Below, piece by piece: positions 1 through 7,500 of a stretch of DNA of 64,000 nt (positions are counted from its first letter, which is position 1; every line of letters starts with the position of its first letter). The translations under genes and the position numbers were made by a program. This DNA is from Synechococcus sp. PROS-U-1 (GTDB taxonomy: Bacteria; Cyanobacteriota; Cyanobacteriia; PCC-6307; Cyanobiaceae), in assembly GCF_014279755.1 (NCBI RefSeq), contig NZ_CP047951.1:620001-684000 (forward strand), given 5' to 3'. Under the pieces are notes generated by a model. It ran no database searches and was not told where the DNA came from. It saw only the letters and a list, made by a program, of their open reading frames with translations.

Positions 1-90
1 CCGTGAGGCGATCCTCCTCACAACTTCAAGCTGGCAAAGCTGCTGGCACTGTGACAACAAAAGTGGACAGCTGCTGACTCGTCCAGGCCA

Positions 91-237
91 TCAGCCCTGC
101 TGGTCCGCCGCTTCTTCCTCTGAGCGCAGAAATCTCTTGCGTTGAGCCAACTCAAAGCCGGATGTCTCTGCTGTTTCGCGATGAGGTGTGTTGGTGCTGC
201 TCTTCTCGTCCTGCTGCGCAGGTTTGTCGAGCCCCAT
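91..237 (-). CDS. small hypothetical protein, paralogue of the 679-828 product
   Basis: A 48-residue ORF starting at ATG 237. Its C-terminal part (ELAQRKRFLRSEEEAA) is clearly similar to the C-terminal half of the protein at 679-828 (ESAQRKRYLRSVEQDLA), while the N-terminal halves differ. No recognised domain; it is basic in the middle and acidic at the end, with no membrane segment. The frame stays open upstream to 315, so a longer start is possible. The similarity between two neighbouring small ORFs on the same strand is the main reason to think both are, or were, genes. Function unknown. Confidence 0.4.
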   Translation of the reverse strand: MGLDKPAQQDEKSSTNTPHRETAETSGFELAQRKRFLRSEEEAADQQG

Positions 238-344
238 CAGTAGGGGGTGAATTCCTCTTCGGCTCATTTGTCGTTGGTCGTTATTCAGATCTCGCGTGGT
301 GGCGTTCCGGCCCAACCGCGTGAGATGACGCTATCGACACTTGC

Positions 345-372
345 CTCGGTCTGTTGGCCTCGGTCTGTTGGC
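345..372. repeat. 14-bp tandem repeat, two copies
   Basis: The unit gcctcggtctgttg occurs twice in a row, followed by a decayed third copy (gccttggtcggg). It lies in non-coding accessory DNA and looks like a replication-slippage product. Confidence 0.6.
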
Positions 373-463
373 CTTGGTCGGGTGCTGGTCAAGGGGGGCG
401 CTTGCACGATCCCGGTGCGACGAGGCCGCCTAAGAGAGTTGCTCGCTATGAGCCCCTAGTTCG

Positions 464-682
464 TTGGGGGGAGCGACGGAATTTGCAGCGACTTTTCAGG
501 CAGTTTTCGGTATCCGGAAAATCTGCCGAGAGTCAGTCCATTGGTCTTGCTGGCAACTGACGAGATGCCTGCCGACCCATAAGTGGGAGAACTCCCCAGT
601 GCTCACAAATGTCGATCAGGGTGAGCTGTTGTTTCTGTTTGACGAAGGTGGCGAAGGTCTCTACGTGTGGCCGATGAATTAA
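464..682 (+). CDS. possible small ORF with protein-like C-terminus
   Basis: A plus-strand frame of 72 codons whose last 30 or so residues (for example QGELLFLFDEGGEGLYVW) look like a folded protein, while the beginning is Cys/Trp-rich and unconvincing. A GTG at 599 would give a peptide of only 27 residues. It ends 3' to 3' against the minus-strand gene 679-828 with a 4-nt overlap. It may be a decayed gene end. I do not recognise it. Confidence 0.22.
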   Translation: MGGATEFAATFQAVFGIRKICRESVHWSCWQLTRCLPTHKWENSPVLTNVDQGELLFLFDEGGEGLYVWPMN

Positions 683-828
683 CTCTCAGTGCTCTCTGCG
701 ATCTTGTCGCGCCAATCAGGCCCCAGCTCTGTGGCCAGATCCTGCTCAACAGAACGGAGGTAACGCTTCCGTTGAGCTGACTCCCAACCCAACCATTTGG
801 GAGCTTGCTTTCGCTGTGTAGTTGTCAT
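679..828 (-). CDS. small hypothetical protein (49 aa)
   Basis: A 49-residue protein from ATG 828, basic in the middle with the core SAQRKRYLRSVEQDLA, then an acidic tail. It shares this core with the ORF at 91-237. No membrane segment or known motif. It lies downstream of two overlapping small genes (864-1091 and 1084-1248) on the same strand and could be the third gene of that small operon. Function unknown. Confidence 0.45.
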   Translation of the reverse strand: MTTTQRKQAPKWLGWESAQRKRYLRSVEQDLATELGPDWRDKIAESTES

Positions 829-863
829 GCTCAGAGAATCACAGATCGTTGACCCCGTGCGGG

Positions 864-1091
864 TTAAGAGCAGGTTCTTGCCTGGAAAAGCTTTGTCAGC
901 CACTTGCCAACCAGCTCAGAGGCACCCATCACACCCCTTAAGTGCATAGGAGGGGGGCAGATGCACTGCAGCTTCTCCCGCAGCCCATCCACGTCAACCA
1001 AATGTTGACGCATGTGCTGCTGAACATGGACTGTTTTTGCAGGCAGCCTTATCCCCCCAAATTGGGTTGAAGCGCCCGCACCATTAGCCAT
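864..1091 (-). CDS. small hypothetical protein (75 aa)
   Basis: A 75-residue ORF chosen from ATG 1091 because this start overlaps the stop of the upstream gene 1084-1248 by 8 nt, an arrangement typical of translational coupling. It has a His/Gln-rich central stretch (VHVQQHMRQHL) and three scattered Cys. No recognised domain. The frame continues open upstream to 1115, so the start is not certain. Confidence 0.4.
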   Translation of the reverse strand: MANGAGASTQFGGIRLPAKTVHVQQHMRQHLVDVDGLREKLQCICPPPMHLRGVMGASELVGKWLTKLFQARTCS

Positions 1092-1248
1092 TGCTCTGCT
1101 TGCAAGGGCGTTCACCCCGCTTCAACTTCACCCACATCGCCTTCTCAAGAGCCGTGAGTTTTGGACAGGTTTCATTGAGCACTTCGAGGGCACGCGACTT
1201 GGCATCCCGGATGTACCGCGTCGTCCGGTCAAGTTCGTCAAAGGCCAT
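1084..1248 (-). CDS. small hypothetical protein (54 aa)
   Basis: A 54-residue ORF from ATG 1248 to TAA 1084. The composition is that of a soluble, charged, helical protein: an acidic/basic N-terminal helix (FDELDRTTRYIRDAKSRALE), one Cys in the middle and a basic end. It overlaps the next gene by 8 nt. No family recognised. Its regular hydrophobic spacing and the overlapping downstream start make it more likely real than chance. Confidence 0.5.
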   Translation of the reverse strand: MAFDELDRTTRYIRDAKSRALEVLNETCPKLTALEKAMWVKLKRGERPCKQSNG

Positions 1249-1518
1249 AACTATTGGATAGGTATGACTACCAAGTTAAAAACTCTGAAAAATGCGACTT
1301 GCATCAAGTGACACAGAATGGACTCCCCCTGAGGGGATGCTGTGGAAGATCACCTTAAAAACATGCTATCGCTGTGCTTCTAACAAAAGCTTTGCAGCGA
1401 ATGCTCGATGTTGATCAATTCAAGAAGATGCTTCAGGCTAGTGGCATGTTGATTGTGTTTTCCTAAGGCATTACTGCTCCGGTGGTAAGTCAGTTTTGTA
1501 GTCGATTTGTAGCCATGT

Positions 1519-2217
1519 TTAAGCGGCTATACGCTGTTCAATGGGTGTGAAGTCCCACCCAATCGGTGACTGAATTTGGTTCAGCTTTCGGTGCTCTTCG
1601 AATAGATCTTCGATTTCCTTGCAGGCTGTGCAGTATGCCGCCCACCCAATCATTCTTCGTGGATTTGCTCGCCCACGCTTGTCAATCGCTTGATCAACGG
1701 TGACTCCTTCTGTTTCTGCTTGTTCAAATGCACTAAGTAATGGAATTTGTGCGTCTAGAACCTTTATGTCGAATCCTTGAAGCAATTCTTTGGCTTTTTC
1801 AGCTGCAGCTTCTTTGCGTGAATCAACTTTCACAAGTAGTGCAGCGTAGGGGATCTTGTATTGCTTCAGCATCTGTGACATTTCAACAGTTAATTCGATT
1901 GATCTGCTCTGCGTAGTAGTGGGCAGCAGAATAAAATCGGCTCCCTCTACTAAGTTTTTCATTTCTTCTTCGTTGCTGCTTGCTTGTCCATCTGTGACAA
2001 TAATCTCTGCCAATCGAGTGGCTTTGGCAGCCGCTTCAATCGGCACGACTGGGCAGGGCAAGAGTCCTCTGGCGCCATAAGCAGTGGCTGATCTGTTCCG
2101 GTCGGCATCAACCAGGACTACCCGTTTTTGTTGATGGCTCCAGGTTGCTGCTATATGAACGCTGCTACACGTTTTGGCAACTCCACCTTTCTGGCCAAAA
2201 ACAGTGATGAACATCAC
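1519..2217 (-). CDS. ParA/MinD-family ATPase, solitary
   Basis: A 232-residue protein of the ParA/Soj/MinD family of deviant Walker ATPases, which move plasmids, chromosomes or protein cargo. The N-terminus carries the signature KGGVAKT (about residues 10-16), followed by VVLVDADRNRSA (switch I region) and a degenerate Walker B segment (IIVTDGQA) where most relatives have IIDTPP. Length fits a short ParA without an HTH extension. No ParB, CopG/RHH partner or centromere-like repeat lies nearby; its neighbours are only tiny ORFs. It could come from an integrated plasmid or a mobile island. The family call is firm; the cargo is unknown. Confidence 0.85.
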   Translation of the reverse strand: MMFITVFGQKGGVAKTCSSVHIAATWSHQQKRVVLVDADRNRSATAYGARGLLPCPVVPIEAAAKATRLAEIIVTDGQASSNEEEMKNLVEGADFILLPTTTQSRSIELTVEMSQMLKQYKIPYAALLVKVDSRKEAAAEKAKELLQGFDIKVLDAQIPLLSAFEQAETEGVTVDQAIDKRGRANPRRMIGWAAYCTACKEIEDLFEEHRKLNQIQSPIGWDFTPIEQRIAA

Positions 2218-2394
2218 GCAGCGACTAATGACTCCTTAAAGGATCGCGTTTTTTTTCTGGAAGGCAATACGTGGGTTATTGCTCCTACCGCGATGACAGC
2301 GTCAGTCAGCTACGGGTCCCCAAGTCATTTTCAGACAGCGCAACCACCTTCCTTAAGAGGTATGGGCGACTGTGGGCTTCGTCTGCGAACTGCC

Positions 2395-2421
2395 AAAAAA
2401 AGGAGAGGTCCTACCCTCTCC
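2395..2421 (-). terminator. intrinsic terminator, minus strand
   Basis: Read on the minus strand: a perfect 7-bp stem (GGAGAGG / CCTCTCC) with a 6-nt loop, followed immediately by seven T. No accepted CDS ends just before it, so it may close a non-coding transcript or read-through from 2789-2968. Confidence 0.65.
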
Positions 2422-2533
2422 CTGCGCGACGCATCACCCCCTCGCCAAAAGGGAGCAATCACACATTGACGTAAGAAATACCTATTAGTGGTTGCCATGA
2501 CGACCAAAAGAGTACTGAGGTCAGGAACCCACG

Positions 2534-2559
2534 AAAAAGGAGGCTCCCTATTCCCTCCT
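2534..2559 (-). terminator. probable intrinsic terminator, minus strand
   Basis: On the minus strand a 5-6 bp stem (AGGAGG / CCTCC[T]) with a 10-nt loop runs into five T. It is weaker than the hairpin at 2395-2421. It is the first terminator-like structure downstream of the gene 2789-2968. Confidence 0.45.
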
Positions 2560-2788
2560 CTGGTGATCTATTCGCCCCTCCTCGAAGGGATGAGCTGACG
2601 GTCGCTATTCAACGGCTCCTATCCCATCGGTAGAAGAGTCCATTGGTTAGTCGTTCCGGAGATTCCTCTCAGGTGAAACCACCAGTCAATTGACCATGTC
2701 GTTCCTGGGGCAATGAAGTCGTAACCCTGGGCTTGATCTGCTCAACGCGTGTCTTGTTACTGAACGGATCGATCTCTTCGCGGTCTGG

Positions 2789-2968
2789 TCAGAACAACCA
2801 GGCCCCCAACAGCACGCCGATCACCAGACCTTTCAGCCAGACCAGCGCAGCCATCTGGTACTCGGAGAGACCGAGCTTTCCCTTGATCCAGAAGAAGACC
2901 TTCTTGTCTGCGAAGACGACAGCGCGGACCGGTTTCCACGGAGCAAGACCATTCAGACGCCAGCTCAT
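2789..2968 (-). CDS. small single-span membrane protein (59 aa)
   Basis: A 59-residue protein from ATG 2968. The N-terminal half is basic and aromatic (WKPVRAVVFADKKVFFW); the C-terminal half holds one hydrophobic helix (about residues 37-58, ending VIGVLLGAWLF) that closes the protein. This layout suggests a cytoplasmic N-terminus with a C-terminal anchor. No named family recognised. Start chosen for the compact product; the frame is open 17 codons further upstream. It is one of several tiny membrane proteins in this accessory stretch. Confidence 0.6.
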   Translation of the reverse strand: MSWRLNGLAPWKPVRAVVFADKKVFFWIKGKLGLSEYQMAALVWLKGLVIGVLLGAWLF

Positions 2969-3041
2969 CAGTATTTGACGGCAGTTAATCGCTGTATAGC
3001 GACGGCCCTCACAAATCAACCAGTTGGTGGAAAGCAGCTAC

Positions 3042-3119
3042 CGCCAACACCTCAAGAAGCGATCCAAGCTCTGGGCACCCACCTGGCAGAAGGAAATGGG
3101 TTGGGCACCTGAGGCTGGA
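3042..3119 (+). pseudogene. truncated copy of the Cys-rich small protein gene at 4461-4691
   Basis: Twenty-six codons match the last 26 residues of the product at 4461-4691 at 23 positions (shared core KLWAPT, QKEMGWAPEAG). The changed residues include two Cys, now Ser and Trp, so a putative metal or disulfide ligand set is lost. The 5' three-quarters of the gene are absent and no start is available. The fragment ends 5 bp before the left tRNA-Arg repeat at 3125, so truncation and island insertion may be connected. Confidence 0.7.
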
Positions 3120-3124
3120 ACTGA

Positions 3125-3175
3125 ACGCCCCCTGATGGATTCGAACCATCGACCGACTGCTTAGAAGGCAGTTGC
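3125..3175. repeat. left attachment-site repeat (3' part of tRNA-Arg)
   Basis: Fifty-one bases identical to 7338-7388, in direct orientation. It contains the tRNA-Arg 3' acceptor strand, the T arm, variable loop and anticodon arm, but after base 3175 the sequence no longer matches the tRNA, so the D arm and 5' acceptor strand are missing and it is not a functional tRNA. This is the classic footprint of a tyrosine-recombinase element integrated into a tRNA 3' end. Confidence 0.85.
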
Positions 3176-3600
3176 CCCTTGCTGCGGTGTTGCCGCTTGG
3201 ATCCTCTGGCACCTCTCCGGAATCTTCGGAGGGCCAGGCACTAGGGCTCTCATTTGTGGTGCGGTGGTTTCTGTGAAGGTGTGGGGCTGGGTTTCTGACT
3301 ATCGACAGGCAAAGAAAAAACGGCTTCCGGCTAGGGCCGATCTGACGGAATGCCCCTTTGTCGGTGGTTGGCTGACGGCTGAGCGGTATCGAAAGCGCCA
3401 GTCCGTAATCGGTGGCTAGAAGCGTTTAGCCATGCCTGAAGACCAGTGATTGCTCCTCTGTCGTCAGTGCTGGCGAGAATTATGCGACTTTTCTCGTTGC
3501 CTAAATCCCGGGGCGCTGACTTGCATATGCCGGTCGGTGGGAGCGAGCTTTTTGGGGGTGTCGATATCCGAGCGAAAGATGGTTTGTCTGAGTGAGGGCT
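3176..3600. other. gene-poor stretch inside the island
   Basis: No well-supported gene. A plus-strand frame from GTG 3273 to TAG 3419 encodes 48 residues with a plausible basic C-terminal half (ECPFVGGWLTAERYRKRQ), but the opposite strand is open over the same bases, so neither is accepted. A short inverted repeat (ctccgg/ccggag type) lies near 3215-3232. Confidence 0.3.
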
Positions 3601-3647
3601 CAAAGAGGAAGGCCGCCCTTCCCGGTGGAAAGACGGCCTAGCTCGCT
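3601..3647 (-). terminator. intrinsic terminator, copy 1 of a 47-bp repeat
   Basis: Read on the minus strand, a 13-bp stem with a 4-nt loop (arms AGGCCGTCTTTCC and GGAAGGGCGGCCT) runs into TTCCTCTTTG. It lies 36 nt downstream of the small gene 3683-3817. A second copy at 3956-4002 differs at only two positions, and the two changes form one base pair (T-A here, C-G there), which supports the RNA hairpin. Confidence 0.7.
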
Positions 3648-3682
3648 TATGCAGGGTTAGTCGACCATTAGGGCGATCGGCC

Positions 3683-3817
3683 TCAAGTCGCTACACCCAC
3701 AACGACAGTTGCAATAGAAACGACGATCCCTCCCCACTTCACCCATTCCGTGTCGTGATCATGAGTGTTGGCGAAGAGGAGAGCGCCAAGCTGAATAACA
3801 ACAAGCTTTTCGAACAT
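3683..3817 (-). CDS. small single-span membrane protein (44 aa)
   Basis: A 44-residue protein from ATG 3817. It has a hydrophobic N-terminal stretch (about residues 5-15), a polar His/Asp-rich middle (ANTHDHDTEW, about 16-25), then a C-terminal transmembrane helix (GGIVVSIATVVVGVA, about 29-43). The middle could bind a metal or simply form a short loop. A good terminator follows, as expected for a monocistronic gene. No family recognised. Confidence 0.55.
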   Translation of the reverse strand: MFEKLVVIQLGALLFANTHDHDTEWVKWGGIVVSIATVVVGVAT

Positions 3818-3955
3818 GACAGAAGAGCCAATGGCCGTCTTTTTGTAACCGGTGGAACGTGTTCGTGAAGTTACAGATGTTCTCGAATTATGTATTGCTC
3901 GTTACTTTTTTGCCTCTATTGTTCGGCCTTGTCTCCAGGCGCAAGATCTAATGCC

Positions 3956-4002
3956 CAAAGAGGAAGGCCGCCCCTCCCGGTGGAGAGACGGCCTAGCTCG
4001 CT
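3956..4002 (-). terminator. intrinsic terminator, copy 2 of the 47-bp repeat
   Basis: The same hairpin as 3601-3647 with a compensatory pair change in the stem and the same T-rich trailer (TTCCTCTTTG on the minus strand). It lies about 60 nt downstream of the small gene 4060-4191 and would end the putative two-gene operon 4415-4060. Confidence 0.7.
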
Positions 4003-4059
4003 CGTTTGTGCATGGTTCAACCCATCACTGCTGAAGAGAGAAAGGGTCGAAGCTTCTGG

Positions 4060-4191
4060 CTAGAGGCGCCCTGGGGCCATTTGCTCTAGGTGTTGGGTCG
4101 TTTTCTCCGAGGGCACCTGAGACGGTGCAAGTGGAGCGTCGAATGGCGTGGCGTACCAGTGCGTGCCTACCAAAGGACCAACCCAGGTCAT
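4060..4191 (-). CDS. small hypothetical protein (43 aa)
   Basis: A 43-residue ORF from ATG 4191 to TAG 4060. Pro-rich and polar, with no transmembrane segment. The case for it being a gene is positional: its ATG overlaps the TGA of the upstream ORF 4188-4415 in an ATGA junction, and a strong terminator follows. No family recognised. Confidence 0.38.
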   Translation of the reverse strand: MTWVGPLVGTHWYATPFDAPLAPSQVPSEKTTQHLEQMAPGRL

Positions 4192-4415
4192 TTTTGAGAC
4201 TGTTGGAGCAGGGGCCAGAAAGTCAGTCTGCTTCTTGGATCTGCTCGGTTGGACCGTCGTCTCTCATGAACGCCTCCGATCTCGATGCACTCAGTTTTGT
4301 GCCTTGAAGGCACAAAGTCATCGGCATTAAGGCGCATTGCCTTGATGGCCCGAGCGATCGATCTTTGGGGTGGCGTGCCTGGCTGCCCTCGCAGTTGGTT
4401 CCACTGCTTGACCAT
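4188..4415 (-). CDS. small basic hypothetical protein (75 aa)
   Basis: A 75-residue, strongly basic ORF from ATG 4415 with the N-terminal motif MVKQWNQLRGQPGTPPQRS, a helical stretch (ARAIKAMRLNADDF) and an Arg-rich C-terminal half. Its stop overlaps the next ORF by 4 nt. Upstream, between this gene and the divergent gene at 4461, lies a small perfect dyad (agtac-taat-gtact, 4433-4446) that could be an operator. No domain recognised; it could bind nucleic acid, but that is only suggested by charge. Confidence 0.38.
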   Translation of the reverse strand: MVKQWNQLRGQPGTPPQRSIARAIKAMRLNADDFVPSRHKTECIEIGGVHERRRSNRADPRSRLTFWPLLQQSQK

Positions 4416-4460
4416 CCACCACTGCGCCGGCTAGTACTAATGTACTGATGCTGGGTGGCG

Positions 4461-4691
4461 ATGGAGGAGTGGGACTTCGTTGATGAGCGAGATCTGCAGA
4501 ACTGGAAAGGCGGTGTGGTCTGCATGACCTGCCAACACTTCACCTATGGCGTCGACCAGCACTGCCACACGATGGTGGGCTGCAACCTCAGGCAGAAGCA
4601 GCTCCAGCAGGGACAGCACCTAAAGAAGCGGTGCAAGCTCTGGGCACCGACCTGTCAGAAGGAAATGGGCTGGGCTCCAGAGGCGGGATGA
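4461..4691 (+). CDS. Cys-rich small protein, putative metal-binding (76 aa)
   Basis: A 76-residue protein from ATG 4461, acidic at the start and basic at the end. It has a CMTCQH motif (about residues 21-26), then HCH (about 34-36), then single Cys near positions 41, 57 and 65. The CxxC and His/Cys pattern suggests a zinc or iron-sulfur site, or thiol chemistry. A truncated copy lacking two of the Cys lies at 3042-3119 beside the left att repeat. No named family recognised. The frame also opens from GTG 4455. Confidence 0.6.
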   Translation: MEEWDFVDERDLQNWKGGVVCMTCQHFTYGVDQHCHTMVGCNLRQKQLQQGQHLKKRCKLWAPTCQKEMGWAPEAG

Positions 4692-4778
4692 AACCAGGAA
4701 GCTGATCAATGAGTCGCTGGGTTGTTGAAAAACTGACAACCACCTGAGGTTCAGCTCGACAGATTGCATGGACGAGCC

Positions 4779-4958
4779 ATGCAAAACAAAACGAGCGAAT
4801 CTTTGGAAGTCATTGCTGCAATCGTCGTCACTGCGGGGCTGGTTGGCGGAAACATGCTGCTGTTTGCATCCCTGCGGACAGACAACAGGGTTAAGCCTCC
4901 AGACCCTCCAGCGCGCACTGCTCCCGAAGCTCGTTCAGCGTTTGGTGAACAGCCGTAG
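4779..4958 (+). CDS. small membrane-anchored protein (59 aa)
   Basis: A 59-residue protein from ATG 4779. After a short polar N-terminus there is one hydrophobic helix (VIAAIVVTAGLVGGNMLLFA, about residues 10-29), then a polar, Pro-rich C-terminal tail (PPDPPARTAPEAR). A type II-like or anchored topology is likely. A TTG at 4764 is an alternative start. No family recognised. Confidence 0.5.
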   Translation: MQNKTSESLEVIAAIVVTAGLVGGNMLLFASLRTDNRVKPPDPPARTAPEARSAFGEQP

Positions 4959-5016
4959 ACGTTGTGGGCTCGATGGCTGTGACCAATCAATAGACAGGGG
5001 CAGCACCTGAAGCTGG

Positions 5017-5154
5017 TTACCCCCCAAACGGCAACCAACCGGGAAGAAGACCTGCACGGGATAGGCCGAAGACCATTGCAACCACCCCAAGCTTGATTCC
5101 CGCCAGGATTCCTGCGTACTTCCAGCTGAACAACGTTTTTGTCTGGGAGGTCAC
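5017..5154 (-). CDS. small single-span membrane protein (45 aa)
   Basis: A 45-residue ORF from GTG 5154. It has a short polar N-terminus (TSQTKTLFSWKY), a hydrophobic helix (AGILAGIKLGVVAMVFGLS, about residues 14-32) and a C-terminal amphipathic end (AGLLPGWLPFGG). Strong helix and aromatic boundary residues argue for a real membrane peptide. The GTG start and the lack of a clear ribosome site leave some doubt. No family recognised. Confidence 0.45.
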   Translation of the reverse strand: MTSQTKTLFSWKYAGILAGIKLGVVAMVFGLSRAGLLPGWLPFGG

Positions 5155-5316
5155 TTCGAATACTCAGTCCAAAACATCATGCGCCACTGACGAGTTGTTC
5201 TCCTGCGCCGCGACGCTGCCGAGCAACGCTGGAAAGAGCTTCTGCGGTTGGGCTGAGCTCCCACTGACCCTGCTTGGGGTGCTGAGGTTGAGCCCTAACT
5301 CTCTGGCATAAATAAA

Positions 5317-5338
5317 CCCCGCCATTGCTGACGGGGTG
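5317..5338 (-). terminator. intrinsic terminator, copy 1 of a 22-bp hairpin repeat
   Basis: On the minus strand CCCCGTCAGCAATGGCGGGG folds into a CCCCG/CGGGG stem and is followed by TTTATTTATG. It lies 40 nt downstream of the small gene 5378-5533. The 22 bases are identical at 5595-5616. Confidence 0.65.
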
Positions 5339-5377
5339 ATGCTCGTACTGTATGTCTGAAAAAAGTTTCTAATTAAC

Positions 5378-5533
5378 TTATTCGGAACAGTATTCAGGTA
5401 CTTCGCGGTACGGGGGATATCTGCCCTTGTAGCATTCAAAAAATATTTTTAGGACGCCAAACATCATAATGCCAATCAATGTCAACTTACCGGTAAAGAC
5501 AAGTCTTTTCAACCATGCACGTGGCTTCTGCAT
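5378..5533 (-). CDS. small single-span membrane protein (51 aa)
   Basis: A 51-residue protein from ATG 5533 to TAA 5378. It has a basic N-terminus (KPRAWLKRLVFTGK), one transmembrane helix (LTLIGIMMFGVLKIFF, about residues 17-32) and a polar tail with two Cys and a Tyr/Pro-rich segment (CYKGRYPPYREV). The positive-inside rule puts the N-terminus in the cytoplasm and the Cys-containing tail outside. A terminator follows. The coherent topology and compact cistron make this one of the better small genes here. No named family recognised. Confidence 0.6.
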   Translation of the reverse strand: MQKPRAWLKRLVFTGKLTLIGIMMFGVLKIFFECYKGRYPPYREVPEYCSE

Positions 5534-5594
5534 GAATCGAGTTTAGATTTAGAACTGGAAACTGCAAGCCTTGTGGTGTAAAAGCACAAACTCG

Positions 5595-5616
5595 CCCCGC
5601 CATTGCTGACGGGGTG
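5595..5616 (-). terminator. intrinsic terminator, copy 2 of the 22-bp hairpin repeat
   Basis: Identical to the hairpin at 5317-5338, read on the minus strand and followed by CGAGTTTGTGCTTTT. It lies about 90 nt downstream of the gene 5708-6037. The trailing T tract is weaker than in copy 1. Confidence 0.5.
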
Positions 5617-5707
5617 GTGTGTGTGAGGTTTTGTCGGGAGATGGATAGCGACAATCACAACGCCCCCTGCTTTTCCCTTGCGGGTTTTTATTGCTTTCCG
5701 TTCATTG

Positions 5708-6037
5708 CTATTTATAATCGCTAAGTTTGCGTCTATAAATTCCCCTTTCGCTATCTCTTTTTTTCTGCTGCAGGCATCGTTTCTTCTTAATATAAAGATC
5801 CTCAAAGTACAAATACTTCATGCTTTTGGGCGAGATTCTTGAGTCTATAATCCATAAAATGTTCTTCAATGCATACATAAAGAGCGTTGAGAAAAAGAAT
5901 GTTTTAATCAAGATCTTGACGGCTATTTCTAATGGTTCAGGCTTTTGCAGGACGAGGATAAATACGAAAATTGATATGGCGGCTCCCCATATCAACGCTT
6001 CCTTAAAGCTTGTCTGTCCCCAAAACTGCCTTAACAT
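5708..6037 (-). CDS. AT-rich two-span membrane protein (109 aa)
   Basis: A 109-residue protein from ATG 6037. It has two hydrophobic segments (ALIWGAAISIFVFILVLQ, about residues 14-31, and a second at about 41-65 including TFFFSTLFMYALKNILWII) and a Lys/Arg-rich cytoplasmic tail (IKKKRCLQQKKRD). Base composition is markedly AT-rich against the rest of the window, so this piece probably came from an AT-rich donor such as phage or another lineage. It is followed by a terminator at 5595-5616. No family recognised. Confidence 0.6.
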   Translation of the reverse strand: MLRQFWGQTSFKEALIWGAAISIFVFILVLQKPEPLEIAVKILIKTFFFSTLFMYALKNILWIIDSRISPKSMKYLYFEDLYIKKKRCLQQKKRDSERGIYRRKLSDYK

Positions 6038-6188
6038 TCTGATAATTCTATATCGCTGATATTCTGCAGCATATGCAGTTACATAGCAACATGAGCGGAC
6101 TAGCCCGCAGGGATCTCTTCAACACCAACCGTCCAGAACACAGGCGCTGGGGCTGTTTTAACCCCTTCACGTTCATCACTAACGCCCT

Positions 6189-6476
6189 TCAATCGCGCAG
6201 CATCAGGCCATAACCGTGCCTCACCATCAATCCACCCAGCACCTCCTCACGCCTTACCCAACGGCTAACAGCGCCCTCCTGTGGACCGCAAATGCTGCTG
6301 GAAGTCATCAACCTCCTAATTCGCACATTTACCATGTGCGGCACGGCCTCAACAACAACCCCGTCGATCTCCAATCCAGCCCCGTCGTCATCACATAACG
6401 CCAAGCCAAATTCAGCCATCGTCACACTTGCGGCCAGGCGAACTGTGTCGCCCTTTCGGGGATTTATGACTGGCAA
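6189..6476 (-). CDS. hypothetical protein, probably frameshifted (95 aa as read)
   Basis: A 95-residue ORF from TTG 6476, which overlaps the end of the upstream gene (stop at 6464) by 13 nt. The N-terminal 75 residues look like a small beta-rich protein (GDTVRLAASV, EIDGVVVEAVPHMVNVRIRRL). Near 6230-6245 the natural continuation moves to another frame, which reads on in a protein-like way (WIDGEARLWPDAARLKGV) to a stop at 6100. The intact product would be about 123 residues. Either a disabling frameshift or a sequence error. It is the third gene of the cluster beside the tRNA; function unknown. Confidence 0.45.
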   Translation of the reverse strand: MPVINPRKGDTVRLAASVTMAEFGLALCDDDGAGLEIDGVVVEAVPHMVNVRIRRLMTSSSICGPQEGAVSRWVRREEVLGGLMVRHGYGLMLRD

Positions 6477-7003
6477 TCCTTTAAGTAACTTTCAAACATA
6501 TTGATTACTTGATTGTAAGGGCTTTCCTCTTGAAAAACATTGAAGTGTGCAGTCACTCTTTTCAGTGGATCTTCAAGCATGTAAGTGACAATCCATTGGG
6601 AATCTTTGCTCTGGTCTAGGTATTTCAGCAGAAGTTTAGCTCTCCTTGTAGCTTCCTCCGCGCATCGTCTTGCTCTGTCTATGTCAACTGAGTTTCTTTG
6701 ATAGTTTCTTCGATGACGAGGGGGCAAGCCCAAGCAACTAAAAATTATTCTAAAAAACTTGTTGACGTAGAAATTCCGATATGGACCTTGGTACGTGCCT
6801 TTGTATGGACCTTGGTAATCAATAACATTGTTCAGAGAAGATAAAATCGCATTTCGACCCTCCTGGTGGTGCAAGATTAACTCTCTAATGATTCTGAATT
6901 CTTTGCCTAGGGGGTGTTTCTTCAGCATTTGATTCACATATGGGCGAACAAAATTCATGTGGCAGTCATCCAATGCTTCAGCCCATTGTTTCGCAGCTGT
7001 CAC
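6464..7003 (-). CDS. hypothetical protein with YQGPY repeats (179 aa)
   Basis: Chosen start is GTG 7003, whose GTGA overlaps the stop of the preceding gene; the frame itself is open to 7090. The N-terminal 15 residues are GC-rich, but from about 6960 down the gene is AT-rich. The protein is helical and basic, with a duplicated aromatic motif (YQGPYKGTYQGPY) near the middle and an Arg-rich stretch (PRHRRNYQRN, RARRCAEEATRRAK) further on. No transmembrane segment or enzyme motif is evident. Its position in a terminase-like cluster suggests phage origin; function unknown. Confidence 0.5.
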   Translation of the reverse strand: MTAAKQWAEALDDCHMNFVRPYVNQMLKKHPLGKEFRIIRELILHHQEGRNAILSSLNNVIDYQGPYKGTYQGPYRNFYVNKFFRIIFSCLGLPPRHRRNYQRNSVDIDRARRCAEEATRRAKLLLKYLDQSKDSQWIVTYMLEDPLKRVTAHFNVFQEESPYNQVINMFESYLKDCQS

Positions 7004-7260
7004 CACACCCGCGGGCCCCTGCCGGTCTTCCACTTGGCCCGCCACCACTGCACCCCATATCGCGCTGCATCCAATGAGTGATTGGCGCAACCGTCAGCAA
7101 TCCTCTCCACATCCCGTGGATGTCTCGGCAACGTCGGCCATGTAGCCATCAACCCCTCACATGCCTTGGTCCACAACAGCCATGGCGTTTCAGGGTCACG
7201 GCCAGCGGCCTGCAACATCGTTCGCACCAAAGCCAATCCATTGGCCTCCCTCTGATTCAT
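7000..7260 (-). CDS. phage terminase large subunit C-terminal remnant
   Basis: An 86-residue ORF from ATG 7260. Its end (PWLLWTKACEGLMATWPTL, then PRDVERIADGCANHSLDAARYGV) matches the usual last part of TerL nuclease domains: a C..L..T.P.L segment followed by a P.DV......H..DA.RYG segment. The same frame is open and similar-looking upstream (STAGDFKAAGCPLVRAGK) up to the tRNA repeat at 7338, where the homology must stop. So this is a fragment lacking the ATPase domain and most of the nuclease domain. It overlaps the next gene by 4 nt. The family match is from memory of TerL alignments, not a search. Confidence 0.55.
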   Translation of the reverse strand: MNQREANGLALVRTMLQAAGRDPETPWLLWTKACEGLMATWPTLPRHPRDVERIADGCANHSLDAARYGVQWWRAKWKTGRGPRVW

Positions 7261-7337
7261 CTTTCCCGCTCTCACCAGCGGACACCCAGCAGCTTTGAAG
7301 TCCCCCGCAGTTGACCCGAGATCCCTTGGTGTGACTG

Positions 7338-7388
7338 ACGCCCCCTGATGGATTCGAACCATCGACCGACTGCTTAGAAGGCAGTTGC
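7338..7388. repeat. right attachment-site repeat, within tRNA-Arg
   Basis: Fifty-one bases identical to 3125-3175. This copy is part of the complete tRNA-Arg gene and covers its 3' part, so integration here would have restored the tRNA. Confidence 0.85.
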
Positions 7389-7412
7389 TCTATCCAGCTG
7401 AGCTAAGGGAGC
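7339..7412 (-). tRNA. tRNA-Arg (anticodon TCT)
   Basis: A 74-nt cloverleaf on the minus strand: acceptor GCTCCCT/AGGGGGC (one G-T pair), D arm with AGCTCAGCTGGATAGAGC, anticodon arm ACTGC-CTTCTAA-GCAGT giving TCT, and a T arm with GGTTCGAATCC. No encoded CCA. It serves as the insertion site for the island at 3125-7412. Confidence 0.95.
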
Positions 7413-7500
7413 AAGCCAACGCATTTTGACAGGCAAGTCCAAAGTGTCTGGATCTTGGCGTCTCAGACCTCCTAAGGTGATGGGCTCCTGATTGGCATCA

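Follow-up and report, generated by a model that had tools for sequence, protein, structure and literature searches.

A probable composite and defective relic of integrated elements at a tRNA-Arg(TCT) gene of Synechococcus sp. PROS-U-1

The 4.2-kb segment enclosed by two copies of the 3' end of a tRNA-Arg(TCT) gene in Synechococcus sp. PROS-U-1 most likely represents a defective, composite relic left by elements with integrases of their own. All positions refer to the stretch of 64,000 nucleotides that was analyzed (the window), unless a C1 coordinate is given. The 51 bp at 3125–3175 recur without a change at 7338–7388 and correspond to the 3' part of the tRNA gene, exactly as the earlier note had it. 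ARAGORN and Rfam (RF00005) place the intact tRNA-Arg(TCT) gene at 7337–7413 on the minus strand. This gene is the target (attB) and contains the right-hand att core (7338–7388, minus strand), and the left att core (3125–3175, minus strand) is a 51-bp copy of its 3' end. In a whole-genome search, the 51-bp sequence has just these two copies in the 2.58-Mb genome, and chance is ruled out as the source of an exact repeat of this kind. A direct repeat of the tRNA 3' end flanking an insert is the arrangement of a tRNA-integrated genomic island of the tyrosine-recombinase type.

The enclosed DNA had been described as holding small genes and no integrase, and both statements hold. The longest ORF of the interval has 208 codons and probably encodes a protein of about 164 aa with a start near 6958. 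Neither an integrase, by PF00589, a profile of five local integrases, or tblastn, nor an integrase remnant is found in the 4.2 kb. Rfam gives no match in the interval besides the tRNA, no transposase gene is recognized at the island, and PADLOC gives no convincing defence match for the ORFs of the interval and of the tract to its left. The reported shift in base composition is real, with a GC content of 41–57% in the interval versus about 60–63% on the right, but it is not confined to the 4.2 kb. The low-GC stretch runs on left of 3125 to about position 1000, indicating that the foreign segment is larger than the 4.2 kb.

The locus was compared across the genus, with 34 genomes searched. Empty sites, which the earlier note had proposed to look for, are present in three relatives (G013, G022, and G026), in which core DNA leads directly into the tRNA. 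G023 and G002 have filled counterparts: this core DNA (92% identical to G013 over ~750 bp) ends at a tRNA copy of 54 or 49 bp, inserted DNA follows, and the intact tRNA, adjoined by a 414-aa integrase, comes last. Integration at the 3' end of the tRNA is expected to yield just such an arrangement. One or more extra copies of the tRNA 3' end lie 2–17 kb away in 16 genomes, in several cases beside an integrase, and G002 has four of them in tandem. Integrase-less intervals of 2.3–3.8 kb are present at tRNA-Arg(TCT) in G030, G027, G015, and G011. Far fewer extra copies of the tRNA 3' end are found in the rest of the family (~one genome per genus), in a rough comparison made under a stricter E-value limit. 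The empty sites and the many occupied relatives confirm that elements of the tyrosine-recombinase type use the repeat as their att site at tRNA-Arg(TCT).

The two ends of the segment differ in history, the left half being common to G030 and the right end not. Two stretches are 92–93% identical to G030: one begins ~2.2 kb left of the window start and reaches 3180, and the other covers 3351–4662 (92.1%). The 175 bp right of the left core (3176–3350), which have TGCCCCTT at both edges, have no match in 33 relatives and are missing from G030, where the core joins the equivalent of 3351 directly. The right part, at about 5.7–7.3 kb, is absent from G030. We considered the identity to G030 as proof of transfer and dropped it, as 92–93% in the island compares with 90.7% in the right core flank.

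The right end resembles that of an element in the distant relative G005. A probable cargo gene of about 164 aa lies at 6464–6958 on the minus strand, and the DNA at 6354–7007 is 89% identical to two other loci in G005. Positions 7003–7320, on the minus strand, encode a 106-residue C-terminal fragment of a phage terminase large subunit, identified by a remote match to full-length homologues that match PHROG terminases. Its counterparts in G005 (89% identity) and G002 (87%) are fragments too, and the one in G005 adjoins an integrase at tRNA-Arg(TCT). The last ~22 bp before the tRNA (7315–7336), which abut it, match the G005 end and are a remnant of an element end of that type.

The interval also contains sequences that recur elsewhere. 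A block of about 425 bp (3955–4380) is dispersed, with near-identical copies in relatives and in the same genome (at C1:614697, C1:1762283, and others). Each of six genomes searched has several full or partial copies. A hairpin-like repeat (3601–3647 and 3953–4002) accompanies the block, which has no Rfam match. A 78-codon ORF (4455–4691, plus strand) encodes a Cys-rich small protein that is widespread in the genus. A recurrent terminator-like sequence (CCCCGCCATTGCTGACGGGG and the following bases) at 5595–5703 is also found at C1:1590509, 1594974, and 1596483, and is common to several island loci and to relatives.

Foreign DNA reaches about 5 kb beyond the left repeat. The older inserted tract, which occupies 1–3124 and begins about 2.2–2.4 kb left of the window start, is 93% identical to G030. 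It contains a gene for a 232-aa ParA-like ATPase (1519–2217, minus strand; Pfam CbiA/AAA_31, PHROG 164), and a 3'-end remnant of the 78-codon gene (3032–3119, plus strand) nearly abuts the left att core. Similar remnants of the Cys-rich gene (about 27 codons; window 3039–3119) recur at many loci of the genus, and in several genomes they break off at almost the same point, which is possibly another recombination site. An outer att copy of the older tract was not found. The window genome lacks both a short reading frame that adjoins the empty site and the core stretch next to the tRNA in empty genomes, indicating that the left border is eroded. The proposal of a tRNA-targeting mini-element is therefore upheld for the tyrosine-recombinase att site but not for one discrete element, since the ends have different histories and foreign DNA extends ~5 kb further left.

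The integrases beside the tRNA copies belong to several divergent groups. Of four tested, two have no Pfam match and two score below the Pfam cut-off. A Pfam-only search therefore undercounts integrases, and the profile of five finds many more. The element-side DNA by the core has direct repeats that are associated with the integrase group: GCACGGAA or GCACGCAA in G023, G002, G008, and G014; TGCGCACA or TGAGCACA in G021, G024, G003, and G033; and TGGGCCACA in G017 and G028, two genomes in which no integrase is seen. Judged by sequence, these repeats probably are arm-type integrase sites. As candidate integrase-specific arm motifs, they allow insertions to be typed from sequence. We scored three motifs (GCACGSAA, TGMGCACA, and TGGGCCACA). 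None is present at either end of the 4.2-kb segment, though they lie beside most integrases at tRNA-Arg(TCT). G005 also has none of the three scored motifs, so their absence in the window is weak evidence against an integrase of the G005 type.

We think it probable that the segment consists of accreted, partly deleted insertions at a tRNA-Arg(TCT) hotspot and is now defective. Tyrosine recombinases have their crossover within the 3' half of the tRNA gene, and each insertion restores an intact tRNA and leaves a 3' copy on the far side, as the comparison of empty and filled sites shows. The tract left of 3125 would be the older one, and a second insertion, or a series, would have filled the DNA from 3125 to the tRNA. 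This second segment would owe its right end to a G005-like end (terminase fragment, integrase, element end, and tRNA). A deletion across a short CCC overlap would have removed the integrase with most of the end, leaving the terminase fragment joined to the ~22 bp that precede the tRNA. The remaining genes would act as ordinary flexible-genome cargo. Because it has no integrase and no recognizable arm sites, the second segment is most likely immobile. However, both cores are still perfect, and the left copy in G030 is unchanged although its flanks differ by ~7% (the chance of no change in 51 bp is about 0.03), which could reflect recent activity or gene conversion. In addition, the deletion is deduced from one distant relative, and no intermediate is seen.

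The same site is used by phages. In IMG/VR contigs L055–L057, an attP identical over 54 bp to window 3124–3177 lies beside a 371-aa integrase, and contig L088, whose integrase is 73% identical, differs from the 51-bp core at one position. No cultured phage record matches the 51-bp site, and the phage integrase matches PSS2 only, at 24%. Genes for RNR, dCTP deaminase, DNA polymerase, and endolysin suggest that the contigs derive from uncultured tailed phages. A T7-like podovirus identity was rejected, as the polymerase comparison does not support it and the polymerase fragment is not close to that of any cultured phage. As in the T7-like cyanophages P-SSP7 and S-TIP37 (PMC8776855), the attP is part of a cyanobacterial tRNA and adjoins the integrase. 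Every attP site published for a T7-like cyanophage corresponds to tRNA-Leu (PMC8776855), whereas the contigs use tRNA-Arg(TCT), which points to an uncultured phage group with a different target.

These contigs bear on the alternatives to an accreted relic. The left core could derive from a phage with a tRNA-Arg attP, whose genome was later deleted. The 54-bp identity takes in the A and CC that flank the core, integration into tRNA-Leu without formation of stable lysogens is described for T7-like cyanophages (PMC8776855), and a phage-type terminase fragment lies inside the interval. However, the DNA that follows the CC on the right side of the left core is unlike the phage arm, which G015 and G027 do match. 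The relatives found for the terminase fragment are element copies in G005 and G002, and none came from viral contigs. We consider this origin improbable. That the left copy is a dispersed tRNA fragment or an ordinary tRNA duplication, with no integration involved, is highly improbable. Some genomes do have partial tRNA matches elsewhere, but the window genome has a single extra copy. The copies in relatives share its locus and orientation, several have integrases beside them, and other genomes have clean empty sites, so that this explanation is already contradicted by the comparison of empty and filled sites. The earlier note had favored a mini-element that is probably mobilized in trans. In this reading, a discrete 4.2-kb element would be integrase-less by design and would be moved by a co-resident or phage integrase recognizing the tRNA-Arg core. 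The perfect 51-bp cores, the 54-bp identity to the attP of integrase-bearing phage contigs, and the integrase-less intervals in four relatives are in accordance with such an element, as is a 97% identical unit shared by G027 and G015. But the ends of the window segment are of different origin and lack matching arm motifs, the 4.2-kb unit is found in no relative, and the genome has no integrase known to use tRNA-Arg(TCT). The best candidate in the own-genome search, at 1.629 Mb, is part of a prophage-like region, and neither the 9 kb to its left nor the 10 kb to its right contains a tRNA gene. Matched att arms recognized by a known integrase are not seen: the right end looks like one of the G005 type minus the integrase, and neither end has a direct-repeat arm motif. 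Mobilization in trans is therefore not borne out for the window copy and is an unlikely explanation; a currently mobilizable mini-element is possible but less likely than a composite relic.

The unit in G027 (L041) and G015 (L042) is a better case for mobilization in trans. It is a 3.5-kb integrase-less unit at tRNA-Arg(TCT) that encodes an M48 peptidase and a 310-aa protein, and is 97% identical in the two genomes, against 91% in the core flank, with unrelated left neighbours. Beyond the core, it has phage attP DNA: in G027, 102 bp match contig L057 without a difference, and in G015, the shared DNA is 134 bp long at 92% identity. An integrase-less unit with a phage attP arm makes mobilization in trans directly testable. 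The unit is found whole in no other genome of the set. Its two arms do not match each other, the tRNA-side arm being of another type with decayed repeats, and the unit could be a hybrid in its own right. Scans of viral contigs find no relatives of the 208-aa ORF, the ParA-like protein, or the terminase fragment of the window, nor of the M48 peptidase of G027, and give no sign of packaging. That the small integrase-less tRNA-Arg(TCT) islands of marine Synechococcus, including the window copy, are satellites borrowing the integrase of an uncultured tRNA-Arg-specific cyanophage seems improbable to us.

The window segment, which we read as an accreted relic, has the marks of a tRNA-integrated island: a flanking direct repeat of the tRNA 3' end and empty sites in relatives. 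Tycheposons, as outlined in PMC10872708, are tRNA-targeting cargo elements of Prochlorococcus and other plankton, with a reported size range of 4–200 kb. Like them, the window copy lies at a picocyanobacterial tRNA with partial tRNA repeats and variable cargo, and related elements at the site carry tyrosine recombinases. Unlike those outlined there, it has no tyrosine recombinase of its own and no replication module, has mosaic ends, and is at the small end of the range. The terminase large-subunit fragment beside the tRNA end recalls phage satellites (PICI-like, VEIME), and relatives at tRNA-Arg and tRNA-Val have primase or terminase genes along with integrases. However, the window has the C-terminal terminase fragment only, without the integrase, primase or other replication genes, and packaging set of a satellite, or the structural and replication genes of a prophage. 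The hypervariable tRNA-Met/ansA island of marine cyanobacteria, which contains repeated partial tRNA-Met copies (PMC2784084), is similar in that several partial copies of one tRNA occur there with decayed mobile DNA, but involves a different tRNA, and no transposase gene is recognized in the window. The locus thus illustrates how tRNA-anchored islands in an abundant marine genus may grow by repeated insertion and then decay.

Related structures are present at other loci. The prophage-like region of the same genome (C1:1629000–1644000; L071, L123) contains genes for an integrase, a tape measure protein, and a terminase large subunit, as well as topoisomerase-like and primase-like genes. A second tRNA hotspot (C1:1590141–1604820; L084, L122) involves tRNA-Pro(TGG), with two 50-bp 3' fragments at ~1593671 and 1604771. 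In G006, a satellite-like element at tRNA-Val(TAC) (L121; C1:38000–47600) carries genes for a primase, a terminase large subunit, and an integrase.
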